A DNA stretch of 64,000 nt from Streptantibioticus cattleyicolor NRRL 8057 = DSM 46488. Lineage in GTDB: Bacteria; Actinomycetota; Actinomycetes; Streptomycetales; Streptomycetaceae. The notes beneath the pieces were generated by a model, which worked only from the letters and a program-made list of their open reading frames with translations, was not told the DNA's origin and made no database searches. Of the stretch, positions 28,195-34,505 are shown one piece after another; the first letter of the stretch is position 1; every line of letters starts with the position of its first letter. The position numbers were made by a program, and so were the translations under genes. Location: contig NC_017586.1 in assembly GCF_000240165.1 (NCBI RefSeq), positions 2,170,001-2,234,000 of the forward strand, written 5' to 3'.

Positions 28195-28574
28195 GGGCTG
28201 ATGGTAGTCCGCGGGGCATCGCCCGGGGGCGCACGGGCGGGCGCACGCAGGGGCATTGCCGGAGCCAGGGGTCCACGGCGGTCTCGCGTACGGTTCCGGG
28301 CGCCCCTGTGACGTATCTCTCAAGCCGGTGCAAAGGGCACGCATCTTGACCTACCGTGTGAGGACGTCCTTAGCACTACCAGGAGACCTTTGGCCGACAC
28401 GACGTGCCAAGGTCCCTTATTCGTGCGGAGACCGGCACGAACCGGGATCCTCAGTGACGTGAACCAGTCGGCCGGGCCCTTGCGTCGAAGGTGACGCACG
28501 GGCAGGGGGCCGGCCACCCCCCACCGCGGGCGCGTCCTGGTGACAGCGCGCGTCCCAGCACACAAGGAACGACC
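28195..28574. promoter_or_regulatory. 380-bp divergent promoter region with a leader hairpin
   Basis: No gene is apparent. TTGACC at 28346-28351 followed after 18 bp by TTAGCA (28370-28375) is a weak promoter candidate for the rightward transporter. Downstream, ACCTTTGGC (28386-28394) pairs with GCCAAGGT (28406-28413) to form a 5'-leader stem of about 11-12 pairs, which could regulate translation or mRNA stability. Confidence 0.4.
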
Positions 28575-30080
28575 ATGGCGTCCAGCCTGACGAAGGACGC
28601 CGCCGCGCAGGTCACCCCTGCATCCGGCGGCAAGACCTTCTTCGGCCACCCGCGCGGCCTGGCCACTCTCTTCATGACCGAGATGTGGGAGCGCTTCAGC
28701 TTCTACGGCATGCGCGCCCTGCTCGTGCTCTACCTGGTCGCCCCGGCGGCCAAGGGCGGTCTCGGTTTCGCCGCGGCGACGGCCGCCGCGATCTACTCGG
28801 TCTACAACGCCACGGTCTACCTGCTGGCGATGCCCGGCGGCTGGATCGCCGACCGGTTGTGGGGTCCCCGCAAGACGGTCGCGGTGGCCGGCACGATCAT
28901 CATGATCGGCCACTTCCTGCTCGCGGTGCCGGTCGAGATCTCCTTCTTCGTCGGCCTGGTCTTCATCGCCATCGGTTCCGGCCTGCTCAAGGCCAACATC
29001 TCCACGATGGTCGGCCACCTGTACCCGGACCGCAACGACCCGCGCCGGGACGGCGGCTTCACCATCTTCTACATGGGCATCAACCTCGGTGCCTTCGCCG
29101 CCCCGCTGGTGATCGGCACCATCGGCCAGAACGTCAACTGGCACCTGGGCTTCGCGCTCGCCGGTGTCGGCATGGCGCTGGGCCTCGCCCAGTACCTGCT
29201 GGGCACCCGCCACCTGGCCCCGGTCAGCAACGAGGTGCCGGCGCCGATGCGCAGCGAGGAGCGCACCGCGCTGCTGCGCAAGGCGGGCCTGTGGGCGCTG
29301 GCCGCGGTGGTCTTCTACGTGGTGGTGCTGGCCACCGGCTCGTTCACCATCAACTGGGTGCTGTGGCCGCTGTCGCTGGCCGGTATCGCGCTGCCCGCCT
29401 GGTACTTCGTGCGGATCCACCGGGACCGTGACCTGACCTCGGACGAGCGCTCGAAGATGACCGGTTACGTCTGGTTCTTCATCGCCGCCGCCGTGTTCTG
29501 GATGATCTACGACCAGTCCGGTTCGACCCTGACGGTCTTCGCCCAGGACCACACCGCGGGCAGGCTGTGGGGCGTCGGCTTCCCGAGCAGCTGGTTCCAG
29601 TCGCTCAACCCGCTGTACATCATGGCGCTGGCCCCGGTCGTCGCCGCGCTGTGGGTCAAGCTGCGGTCGAAGAACCCGTCGACCACGGTGAAGTTCGCCT
29701 ACGGTCTGCTCGGCATCGGCATCTCCTTCGGCGTGATGATGATGGCCCAGGCCGCGGCGTCCGGCGGGGCCAAGGTGACCCCGCTGTGGCTGGCGCTGGT
29801 CTACCTGATCCAGACGGTCGCGGAGCTGTGCCTGTCGCCGGTGGGCCTGTCGGTCTCCACCAAGCTGGCGCCGGCCAAGTACGCGGGCCAGATCATGGGG
29901 CTGTGGTTCCTCGCGGTGACCGCCGGTGACTGCGTGGCCGCCATCACCCAGCTGGTGCTCGGCAACGCCTTCCTCTCCCAGGCGTCCTTCGCGGTGCAGG
30001 GCGCGATCGCGGCGCTGGCCGGCGTGGCCTTCGTGCTGTGGCGCAAGAAGGTCATCCGGCTCATGGGCGACGTGCACTGA
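28575..30080 (+). CDS. Proton-dependent oligopeptide transporter (POT/PTR2 family)
   Basis: This 501-residue protein starts at ATG 28575 with AAGGAAC upstream. It has about 14 helices. The POT hallmark EMWERFSFYGMRALL at about residues 36-50 contains the ExxER proton-coupling motif. GGWIADRLWGPRKT is the MFS motif A, and FYMGINLGAFAAP is the PTR2 signature. It imports di- and tripeptides with protons. It stands alone, divergent from the two-component operon, and is followed by the 201-bp inverted repeat. Confidence 0.94.
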   Translation: MASSLTKDAAAQVTPASGGKTFFGHPRGLATLFMTEMWERFSFYGMRALLVLYLVAPAAKGGLGFAAATAAAIYSVYNATVYLLAMPGGWIADRLWGPRKTVAVAGTIIMIGHFLLAVPVEISFFVGLVFIAIGSGLLKANISTMVGHLYPDRNDPRRDGGFTIFYMGINLGAFAAPLVIGTIGQNVNWHLGFALAGVGMALGLAQYLLGTRHLAPVSNEVPAPMRSEERTALLRKAGLWALAAVVFYVVVLATGSFTINWVLWPLSLAGIALPAWYFVRIHRDRDLTSDERSKMTGYVWFFIAAAVFWMIYDQSGSTLTVFAQDHTAGRLWGVGFPSSWFQSLNPLYIMALAPVVAALWVKLRSKNPSTTVKFAYGLLGIGISFGVMMMAQAAASGGAKVTPLWLALVYLIQTVAELCLSPVGLSVSTKLAPAKYAGQIMGLWFLAVTAGDCVAAITQLVLGNAFLSQASFAVQGAIAALAGVAFVLWRKKVIRLMGDVH

Positions 30081-30098
30081 CGTCCCACCGTGGTCCGA

Positions 30099-30299
30099 CC
30101 GGGGCCCCGCGGCTCATAGTGCCGCGTCAGCCAGGGTTCGCCCCGTCGCGGCGTCCGGCACGGCGCCTCGCGGCGTTGCCGGATCAGCCGAGTAGACCCA
30201 CTACGAGGCCGATCCGGCGCCTTGCGACGCACCGCACCGGACGCCGCTCCTTACCGGGCAAACCCTGGCTGACGCGGCACTACAGCCGCGGGGCCCCGG
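30099..30299. repeat. 201-bp long inverted repeat (MITE-like or giant hairpin)
   Basis: Two arms of roughly 95 nt converge on a loop around 30196-30200 (GTAG-ACCCA-CTAC). The outer 44 bases are almost identical in inverse: CCGGGGCCCCGCGGCT, then TAGTGCCGCGTCAGCCAGGG, then a GCCC end, with one or two changes. The inner halves match with scattered mismatches and one short gap. It lies between the convergent peptide transporter and surface-protein genes. No obvious target-site duplication was found. It may act as a terminator, but it is far larger than needed for that. Confidence 0.75.
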
Positions 30300-30311
30300 C
30301 GTACCCGGGCG

Positions 30312-31760
30312 TCAGCGCCGGGCGCGGCGCCTGGGCAGGAAGGTGAAGACGGCCGCGCCGAGCAGCACCAGGGTGCCGGCGACGAGGCCGAGGGCGTGCA
30401 GGGCGCCGGTGTCGCTCGCGCCGGTCTGGGCGAGTCCGCCGGCCGATCCGGTGCCGGTGGAGCCGCCGGTGCCGGAGGTGGTGGCGCCGGTGGTCCCGGT
30501 GGTGCCGGCCGAGCCGCCGCCGGTGCCGCCCGGCTGGGCGGAGGTGTCCAGAGTGAGCGAGGCGCCCGGGTCCTTGGCCGGGGTGCAGGTGGTCGTGGTG
30601 CCCAGCGCCTCGACGGTGAGGACGCCCGGGGTCAGCGTGGCCTTTCCGGTGACGCCCGGCTTGTAGGTGCCCGTCAGGTCGGGGATGACGATGGGGGCGC
30701 CGGCCTTGATGGGCTGGGCGTTGACCGGTCCGGTGGTCGCCACCGAGCCGGAGTCGGCGCCGCCCACGGCGACCCGCATCGAGGGCTTGACCGCGCCCGC
30801 CGGGATGTCGGCCGGGCTGTTCATCACGCTCTTGGCGAAGTGCACGGTGAGCGCGAAGTCCCCGCCCGCCTTGGCCGCGTCGATCTCCACCGGCGAGACG
30901 GCCTCCTTGGCGCCGATCGGCGTCCGGCACTTGTAGTCCACGTCGACCGGGGTGCCCTTGAACGAGGTGGGCCCGCCGGATCCGCCGGTGCTCTGGCCGC
31001 CGCTGGTGCCGGACGTCGAGGTGCCGCCGGACGTCGTGGTGCCGCCCGATGACGTCGTGCCGCCCGATGTCGTCGTACCGCCGGACGTCGTCGTACCGCC
31101 GGACGTCGTCGTACCGCCCGATGTCGTCCCACCCGACGAGGACGTCCCGCCCGTGGACGTCCCGCCCGTCGTCGTACCGCCCGAACTGCCGCCGTCGGAC
31201 GTCACCTTGATGGTGACCGCGGGCGGCACGGTCGCCGTGGCCTTGCACTTGGTGTCCGTGGAGAGGGGTTTGCTGACGTTGATGTCGTAGTCGGCGGGGG
31301 TGAGGGTGACGTCGCCGGCCTGGGTGAGCTTGAGCGTGCCGGTCATGTCGGAGAGGACCATGGGGCTGTTCTTGGGGATCGGCGGGTTGCTGCGGGGGCC
31401 GGAGACGGCGAGGGAGCCGGTGGCCGCGCCGCCGATGGTCAGGTGGCCGCTGGGCTGCACGGTGTCCTTGCCCAGGTCGATGATGCCCGGGTTGTTCGAG
31501 GCGGCCTGGAGGGTTTTCCACACCACCGTGACCGTGTCGCCGACCTTGGCCGTGGCGGGGGCGGTGATGTCGGCCTTGGTGGTGCCGTTCACCGGGGGCA
31601 GCCCGGAGATGGGCGGCGGGACGCACTGGGTGGCGAAGTCGGACTCGGCGGCACGGGCGGCCCCGGAGGAGAGCATCAGGGCGGCCCCGCCGAGGGCGAG
31701 CGCGAGACCGGCCGCACCGGCGGCCCGGGTCGCGGATGGTCGGGTACGTAACGTGGTCAC
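30312..31760 (-). CDS. Sortase-anchored surface protein with LAQTG signal and a TTA codon
   Basis: This 482-residue protein starts at GTG 31760 behind GAAGGGAA. It has a signal peptide (to about residue 38) and an N-terminal beta domain (about 45-180) with a Cys pair. A Gly/Ser/Thr repeat linker (about 188-263) follows, then a second beta domain (about 270-405) similar to the one in the 33708-34397 product, and another Gly/Thr linker. The sorting signal LAQTG (443-447), a hydrophobic helix and RRRARR complete it. LAXTG is typical of class E sortase substrates in actinomycetes. Codon 4 is TTA (31749-31751), the bldA-dependent leucine codon. It is the last gene of a four-gene operon. Adhesion or aerial-surface roles are inferred. 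Confidence 0.85.
   Translation of the reverse strand: MTTLRTRPSATRAAGAAGLALALGGAALMLSSGAARAAESDFATQCVPPPISGLPPVNGTTKADITAPATAKVGDTVTVVWKTLQAASNNPGIIDLGKDTVQPSGHLTIGGAATGSLAVSGPRSNPPIPKNSPMVLSDMTGTLKLTQAGDVTLTPADYDINVSKPLSTDTKCKATATVPPAVTIKVTSDGGSSGGTTTGGTSTGGTSSSGGTTSGGTTTSGGTTTSGGTTTSGGTTSSGGTTTSGGTSTSGTSGGQSTGGSGGPTSFKGTPVDVDYKCRTPIGAKEAVSPVEIDAAKAGGDFALTVHFAKSVMNSPADIPAGAVKPSMRVAVGGADSGSVATTGPVNAQPIKAGAPIVIPDLTGTYKPGVTGKATLTPGVLTVEALGTTTTCTPAKDPGASLTLDTSAQPGGTGGGSAGTTGTTGATTSGTGGSTGTGSAGGLAQTGASDTGALHALGLVAGTLVLLGAAVFTFLPRRRARR
31021..31128. repeat. Six tandem 18-bp coding repeats in the surface-protein linker
   Basis: Six head-to-tail units of the form GTRCCGCCSGAYGTCGTC, with single-base variations, lie exactly in frame and encode the Gly-Gly-Thr-Thr-Thr-Ser linker. 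Units 31075-31092 and 31093-31110 are identical. Such repeats can change copy number by slippage without breaking the frame. Confidence 0.85.
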
Positions 31761-33707: not shown

Positions 33708-34397
33708 CTACCGGGTCCGGGTGCGCCGGCCCAGCCAGAGGACGCCGCCGGCGCCGAGCAGCAGGACGGTGCCGCCGAGGGTGCCGAGCGCCACCGCGTC
33801 GTCGGCCGGGCCGGTCCGGGGCAGTTCGGCGCCGCCGCCGGTGGTGGAGCCCGTGGAACCCGTGGAGCCGCCGGCGGCGGTGACGTCGAGGGTGAGCGAG
33901 GGGCCGGGGTCGTTGCCGGGGGTGCAGGTGGTGGTGGTGCCGAGCGCCTTGATGGTGAGCACGCCCGCGGTGAAGGTGACCTTGCCGGTGGCCTTGGGGG
34001 TGTAGGTGCCGCTCAAGTCGCTGATCTTGATCGGGGTGTTGGCGGGGACCGGCTGGTCGTTGGGGGGTCCGGAGACGTTCACGGTGCCGGAGTCGGCGCC
34101 GCCGACCTTGACGACCGCGCTGGGGTTCATCGCGCCCTTGCCCAGTTCGATCGGACTGGAGGAGACGCCCTTCTCGAAGGACATGGTGAGCCGGTAACCG
34201 GAGCCGTCCGGCGCGGCCTTGATGCCGATGGGCGACACACCGCTCTTGGGGCCGATCGGGGTCTGGCACCGGTAGTCGACGTCGACCGTGGCGGCGTACG
34301 CCCCCGGCGCCACGGCCAGCGCCGCCCCGGCCACCAGTACGGTCGCGGTGGTGAGCGCCGCGACCCGGGCCGTCGTCCCGCGCGTGGAGTAGGACAC
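33708..34397 (-). CDS. Sortase-anchored surface protein with LPRTG signal
   Basis: This 229-residue protein starts at GTG 34397, five bases after GGGAGG; an upstream ATG at 34418 lacks a ribosome site. It has a signal peptide (about residues 1-36, ending GAYAA), then one beta domain (about 37-172) beginning VDVDYRCQTPIGPKSGVSP and ending CTPGNDPGPSLTL, with one Cys near each end that could pair. A Gly/Ser/Thr linker leads to LPRTG (192-196), a hydrophobic helix and RRTRTR. The domain is clearly homologous to the second domain of the 30312-31760 product. It may belong to DUF6801, but that is from memory. It is the first gene of the operon. Confidence 0.85.
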   Translation of the reverse strand: MSYSTRGTTARVAALTTATVLVAGAALAVAPGAYAATVDVDYRCQTPIGPKSGVSPIGIKAAPDGSGYRLTMSFEKGVSSSPIELGKGAMNPSAVVKVGGADSGTVNVSGPPNDQPVPANTPIKISDLSGTYTPKATGKVTFTAGVLTIKALGTTTTCTPGNDPGPSLTLDVTAAGGSTGSTGSTTGGGAELPRTGPADDAVALGTLGGTVLLLGAGGVLWLGRRTRTR

Positions 34398-34505
34398 GGC
34401 TGCCTCCCTTCGTGCCATCCGCCCATTACTGACGGCACATCAGATTTGGCGCCCGACAGTACGCCGGGGACCGTGCCGAGGGAAGAGCGACGGCCGCCCG
34501 GGACC

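Follow-up and report, generated by a model that had tools for sequence, protein, structure and literature searches.

The palindrome at 30099-30299 separates two convergent genes of S. cattleyicolor, positions being those of the window, the whole 64,000-nt stretch that was analysed. The gene reading into the site on the + strand (28491-30080; its true start possibly lies further downstream) encodes a POT/PTR2-type peptide transporter (Pfam PTR2, 223 bits). Facing it on the - strand is an ORF at 30312-31760 with no Pfam match, encoding a Thr/Gly-repeat secreted protein whose LAQTG-hydrophobic-RRRARR end would, as judged by eye, be a sortase-type anchor. The neighbouring secreted protein at 33708-34418 (-) ends in LPRTG and a hydrophobic-basic tail, and one of the two carries long GGTTTS repeats; both are likely sortase substrates.

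Folding returned the whole of 30099-30299 as a single hairpin running from end to end with a loop of 5 nt, at a minimum free energy of -170.6 kcal/mol against -96.3 +/- 4.5 for shuffled sequences (z -16.6; equalled by none of 200 shuffles). Its inverted-repeat arms are 30099-30114/30284-30299 (16 nt, 100%), 30117-30146/30253-30282 (30 nt, 93%) and 30148-30171/30224-30247 (24 nt, 83%). The first-pass annotation had described a large, near-perfect palindrome between convergent genes with a 5-nt loop and some 44 nearly identical outermost nucleotides, and in these respects its description stands. It had also taken the 201 bp as one unit, which is correct for the hairpin and incorrect for the repeat, whose limits are 30117 and 30282 with the outermost 16-bp arms derived from the host. 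The palindrome is a composite of two nested palindromes, a MITE inside a host hairpin, and a single 201-nt hairpin results because element and target are both palindromic.

The arms of the host hairpin, at 30099-30114 (+) and 30284-30299 (-), are perfect complements of each other, are absent from the other copies of the element and form a candidate terminator. When the MITE and one TA are removed in silico, what is left, CCGGGGCCCCGCGGCT-CATAC-AGCCGCGGGGCCCCGG, folds (z -6.5) into a stem of 16 bp without mismatches that closes a 5-nt loop. The stem is present without a T-run, no T-run terminator having been found within 29900-30500; terminators of Streptomyces are frequently without one. If the stem does act as a terminator, the 201-nt hairpin probably still terminates transcription from both genes, and the locus would illustrate a terminator enlarged by insertion into its loop, with little harm expected.

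Boundaries and copies of the element

The MITE proper is 162 bp long (GTGCCGCG...CGCGGCAC; 30119-30280) and has no transposase gene. On its left lies a TA dinucleotide (30117-30118) and on its right the same dinucleotide again (30281-30282), a target duplication that the first-pass annotation had not noticed; TA..TA also brackets other copies, namely those at L050, L012 and L013. Its left terminal inverted repeat (TIR), GTGCCGCGTCAGCCAGGGTTCGCCCCGT, occupies 30119-30146 (+) and its right one 30253-30280 (-), the latter being 93% complementary to the former over 30 nt. Between them, at 30147-30247 (+), is an asymmetric hairpin core (CTCGCGGCGTTGCCGG ... CCGGCGCCTTGCGA) that is conserved and common to MITEs with other TIR types. 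Within the window the TIR pattern (up to 3 mismatches) matched only this site, where 0 matches were expected.

When the region was compared by BLAST with the genome it comes from, 14 full-length copies and several fragments were identified, distributed over both contigs. The copies are 162-188 bp long, below the approximate 300 bp of a MITE, and all are devoid of a transposase gene. Every copy shares (TA)GTGCCGC...GCGGCAC(TA); outside this stretch nothing is shared and the flanks are unrelated, which is a sign of movement. Because the common stretch stops at TA, only 30119-30280 is mobile, and the outer arms of 16 bp belong to the host. It might be supposed that these arms belong to the mobile element as a 201-bp variant, given that they are perfectly complementary and extend the hairpin, but they lie beyond the bounding TA and none of the other copies has them, and we give this reading hardly any credence. 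Of the options raised in the first-pass annotation, the MITE-like one is borne out by the 14 full-length copies with their unrelated flanks, IS630-type ends and duplicated TA, and the copy count that it proposed rules out the single syntenic copy that would have spoken for a plain terminator.

All 14 full-length copies lie outside predicted coding frames according to a crude GC3 test. TA is retained on both sides in only 4 of the 14, and CA..TG and TG..CA pairs occur as well. In L003, L005, L007 and L010 the end dinucleotides are of this second kind, complementary to each other and not direct repeats; such ends are compatible with arm-to-arm copying within the palindrome, at which they hint while proving nothing. 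The copies at L007, L010, L011, L012 and L052 are longer (185-190 bp), their cores being capped at the apex by an additional GC-rich hairpin of about 25 bp. One copy locus, L008, is identical to the plasmid pSCAT (NC_016113.1) of strain NRRL 8057 = DSM 46488 over 3172/3172 bases. Phage records gave no match to the element.

IS630-type ends and the TA target

Together with its TA, the TIR agrees at 18 of its first 22 bases with TAGTGCCGCATCAGGCAACGTT, the sequence that forms perfect (22/22) inverted ends in the IS630 elements L115, L122 and L124; the closest IS630 ends thus depart from it at 4 of 22 positions. An IS630-family transposase, L087, is flanked by ends of this kind in related genomes; it contains DDE_3 and HTH domains, and its score on NF033545 IS630 is 148 bits. 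Many loci of other Streptomycetaceae contain complete IS630-family elements in which the inverted ends, TAGTGCCGC(A/G)TCAGGCAACGTT, are identical or almost so; the IS630-family elements L116 and L117 are complete at about 1.23 kb. Ends matching those of the cognate transposase were found in other species and not in the S. cattleyicolor genome itself, in which all listed matches to the end pattern (up to 3 mismatches) were MITE copies or fragments and no autonomous element with these ends was found. The genome's own IS630 element, L062, has ends that are related yet different.

Insertion is into TA, with CTAG favoured. The target of the window copy reads CATAC, the other copies in this genome are mostly at CTA(G) or one-base variants of it, and a C precedes the left TA, giving CTA(G), in 41 of 47 core-bearing elements from other genomes that were chosen for their TA..TA ends. 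The general target is therefore TA in CTAG. The flanks of the copy at L005 form an 11-bp stem and those of the window copy a 16-bp stem, compared with at most 9 bp for swapped flanks. Hairpin loops were rejected as a general target, since they account for 2 of the 14 own copies and 1 of the 47 relatives with other ends; such loops are entered only now and then.

The search for an empty site gave none for the window copy, nor one for any IS630-type copy. For the IS630-type copy in G221 the flanking genes are non-adjacent in relatives, and for the plasmid locus L334 the flanks are not shared. The formal empty site that we have belongs to a core-bearing relative with IS5-type ends, described below.

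The IS630-family element ISY100 moves by cut and paste, requires its transposase as the sole protein, and duplicates the TA into which it inserts; mini-transposons that retain 30 bp from both ends are mobile (PMC2170065). A preference of the family for CTAG is indicated in PMC2170065 and by the title of Tenzen and Ohtsubo 1991, cited therein. The element described here resembles ISY100 and IS630 in its short TIRs, its insertion into TA with duplication and its CTAG preference, and the 30 bp that suffice in ISY100 are the size of the TIR here. It differs from the family in having no transposase, in its length (162 bp compared with about 1.2 kb) and in its internal core, which is absent from the IS630 elements examined. 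Taken together, the ends and target strongly suggest that an IS630-type transposase moved the window MITE, and we consider it very probable that an IS630-type MITE sits in the loop of a terminator.

The core shared among different end types

BLAST matches in other genera cover positions 31-131 of the query (166 bp) and break off abruptly there, and the cores found in this manner are flanked by different inverted repeats. Among the matches listed, the core pattern occurs mostly in Streptomyces, and also in Stackebrandtia, Prauserella, Rhodococcus, Pseudonocardia, Mangrovactinospora and Actinacidiphila. A phylum-wide covariance-model search, in which 19 candidates were scored per genome and absence elsewhere carries little weight, placed the core in 4 of 198 genomes, all of them Streptomycetaceae. 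Two loci of a MAG labelled Deltaproteobacteria, RIFOXYD12_FULL_57_12 (L159 and L196), bear the same core motif with TAGTGTCCCG ends at about 165 bp, as either distant transfer or mis-binned contigs would produce.

The ends of the core-bearing relatives form at least 10 clusters at up to 6 mismatches in 18. In the S. cattleyicolor genome itself (G000), another MITE type with TAGGGTCCTTCTGACGGATC ends and a related core is found on C2 at 5298751-5299160 and 3793765-3794174 (L340, L341), and a further type with CTAGGCCCTGTCGTCAAG ends and related cores at L342-L345. Two of the foreign end types match IS5-family elements: CTAAGGGYTGTCCCGTAA at L282, with DDE_Tnp_4 above the cut-off and NF033581 at 120 bits, below its cut-off of 140, and CTAGGYCGTGTCTTCAAA at L289, with NF033580 at 174 bits, above the cut-off. 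G000 also contains about 14 near-identical copies of a gene for a 260-aa DDE_Tnp_4 (PF13359) transposase on both replicons, a gene that appears to mark an IS5-type element recently active in this genome.

A core-bearing element with IS5-type ends splits a small ORF on the S. anulatus plasmid NZ_CP109126. The unsplit site, CAACTAGATG, is seen in three further S. anulatus plasmids, compared with CAAC-TA-[element]-TA-GATG in the filled plasmid. The element in NZ_CP109126 is flanked by a clean TA duplication in CTAG, evidence that a relative with this core has moved.

Core and arms are conserved to different degrees. Between eight types, into which 39 distinct elements of exactly 166 nt were grouped, core identity averages 75% (0.68-0.87), a figure to which the letters fixed by the core pattern used to gather most relatives contribute non-independently, as against 41% for the arms (0.15-0.59; shuffled 30%). 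Relatives found by BLAST, for which no core pattern was used, likewise show a conserved core beside divergent arms. For the window's element and L172 the cores are 83% identical and the arms 11-14%, and in several type pairs the arms are at or below chance (0.11-0.15). Core-bearing elements are mostly about 166 bp long, and most types have the core motif 50 and 55 nt from the ends; a loosely defined class of ends, 'IS630a' (9-mer, 3 mismatches), was left out of this comparison, which uses the remaining classes.

Two other accounts of this pattern have to be weighed. The core could be an independent mobile hairpin that was repeatedly inserted into the centres of unrelated MITEs or insertion sequences, as the sharp BLAST limits (positions 31-131) and the involvement of several transposase families might indicate; however, repeated insertion of a core should vary the lengths, and the near-constant distances of 50/55 nt, the length of mostly 166 over many TIR types and a non-exhaustive search in which no clear solitary core was seen make this account rather improbable. 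Alternatively, all TIR types may have come from one ancestor by gradual point mutation, the arms changing faster than the core and tracking their transposases, without any exchange. Constant length and collinearity would follow, the IS630-type classes TAGTGCCGCGTC and TAGTGCTGTGACC appear intermediate, and the 41% identity of arms between types is slightly above the shuffled 30%. Yet arms at chance level (0.11-0.15, as between the window's element and L172) beside cores that are well conserved (83% in that pair) argue against plain drift, though less against drift under selection by different helpers; ends from different transposase families also speak against gradual divergence, and we regard it as unlikely, though less so than a mobile core. 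We favour exchange of the ends around a persisting core.

Pairing was assessed by imposing the window structure on the 39 elements, with counts referring to sequences and not to events. The arms were 87% paired (slid controls 31-47%), and compensatory change was seen at 27 of 28 pairs; in the core the corresponding values were 81% (slid controls 25-42%) and 14 of 39 pairs. The asymmetric features of the core, CTCGCnGCGTTG vs CGCCTTGCGA, are kept in all types. Across the 39 elements, pair changes on the + strand contained no excess of G-U over A-C and hence gave no sign of selection on a +-strand RNA. Comparison of 30099-30299 with Rfam yielded chance matches only (best E 0.4, far under gathering scores), and the conserved hairpin RNA that the first-pass annotation had offered as an option finds no backing in either result.

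A large host terminator or structured RNA kept for transcription control, with the other copies as similar terminators, would agree with a very stable hairpin between convergent genes and with compensatory changes in its pairs, but it leaves unexplained 14 copies with identical boundaries and unrelated flanks, the TA flanks and the ends matching IS630 elements, as well as the empty site in a relative, and it has neither an Rfam match nor the G-U excess in its favour. We judge it highly improbable.

Proposed history and relation to known systems

The history that we propose starts with a bidirectional terminator hairpin of the host, with a 16-bp stem and the loop CATAC, between the two convergent genes. 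A 162-bp MITE with 28-bp TIRs of IS630 (Tc1/mariner-like) type would have entered at the TA of this loop, an IS630 transposase presumably acting in trans to cut the MITE at its ends and paste it into TA, which was thereby duplicated. Its middle portion of about 100 bp would be the hairpin core of a larger group of MITEs, joined in different members to IS630 or IS5 ends and directed to TA/CTAG targets. The group may have persisted by end exchange, in which one arm gains a new end, from which its partner is then copied within the hairpin, possibly through template switching in the palindrome. This full account, in which an IS630-type MITE with a shared core and exchanged ends entered the loop of a host terminator, is one that we consider very probable.

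We advance a broader proposal more tentatively, as a possibility: that these are widespread actinobacterial mini-transposons with one asymmetric core, whose terminal repeats are swapped among unrelated transposase families, the core aiding the element (e.g. by protecting, repairing or copying its arms), so that the element and not its helper would be the stable lineage. The usual view of MITEs is that each is what deletion has left of a single parent IS; in the present group it is the interior that stays conserved, with ends from several transposase families, a nearly constant length and a common CTAG/TA target. If ends are exchangeable, an element that is not autonomous can survive the loss of its helper, and end exchange would help to explain the persistence of MITEs without an autonomous partner, as with this TIR type in S. 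cattleyicolor.

Searches of the open-access literature yielded no account of this element or of such sharing of a core in bacteria. ERIC, Correia (NEMIS) and Nezha are bacterial palindromic MITEs flanked by TA. Correia elements and TA-flanked MITEs are treated in the introduction of PMC4133298. The element described here is like ERIC, Correia and Nezha in being about 100-200 bp long, palindromic, intergenic, TA-flanked and non-coding, a likeness of form with no sequence relation claimed; it differs in that one core joins ends of several transposase families. TIMEs, the mosaic Tn3-derived elements, are comparable as miniature, non-autonomous elements with mosaic derivatives and a core containing short conserved stretches, but they have constant Tn3-type ends and varied contents, whereas in the present group the core is constant and it is the ends that vary (PMC4133298). 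REP/BIME sequences, which are mobilised by RAYT, are likewise repeated intergenic hairpins with conserved mismatches (REP types, PMC3733652). REPs are 20-40 bp long and have a GTAG/CGTC tag, in contrast to the long TIRs of DDE type and the TA duplication found here, and a REP/RAYT palindrome was ruled out for this locus because its unit measures 162 bp, its TIRs measure 28 bp and its partners are of DDE type.
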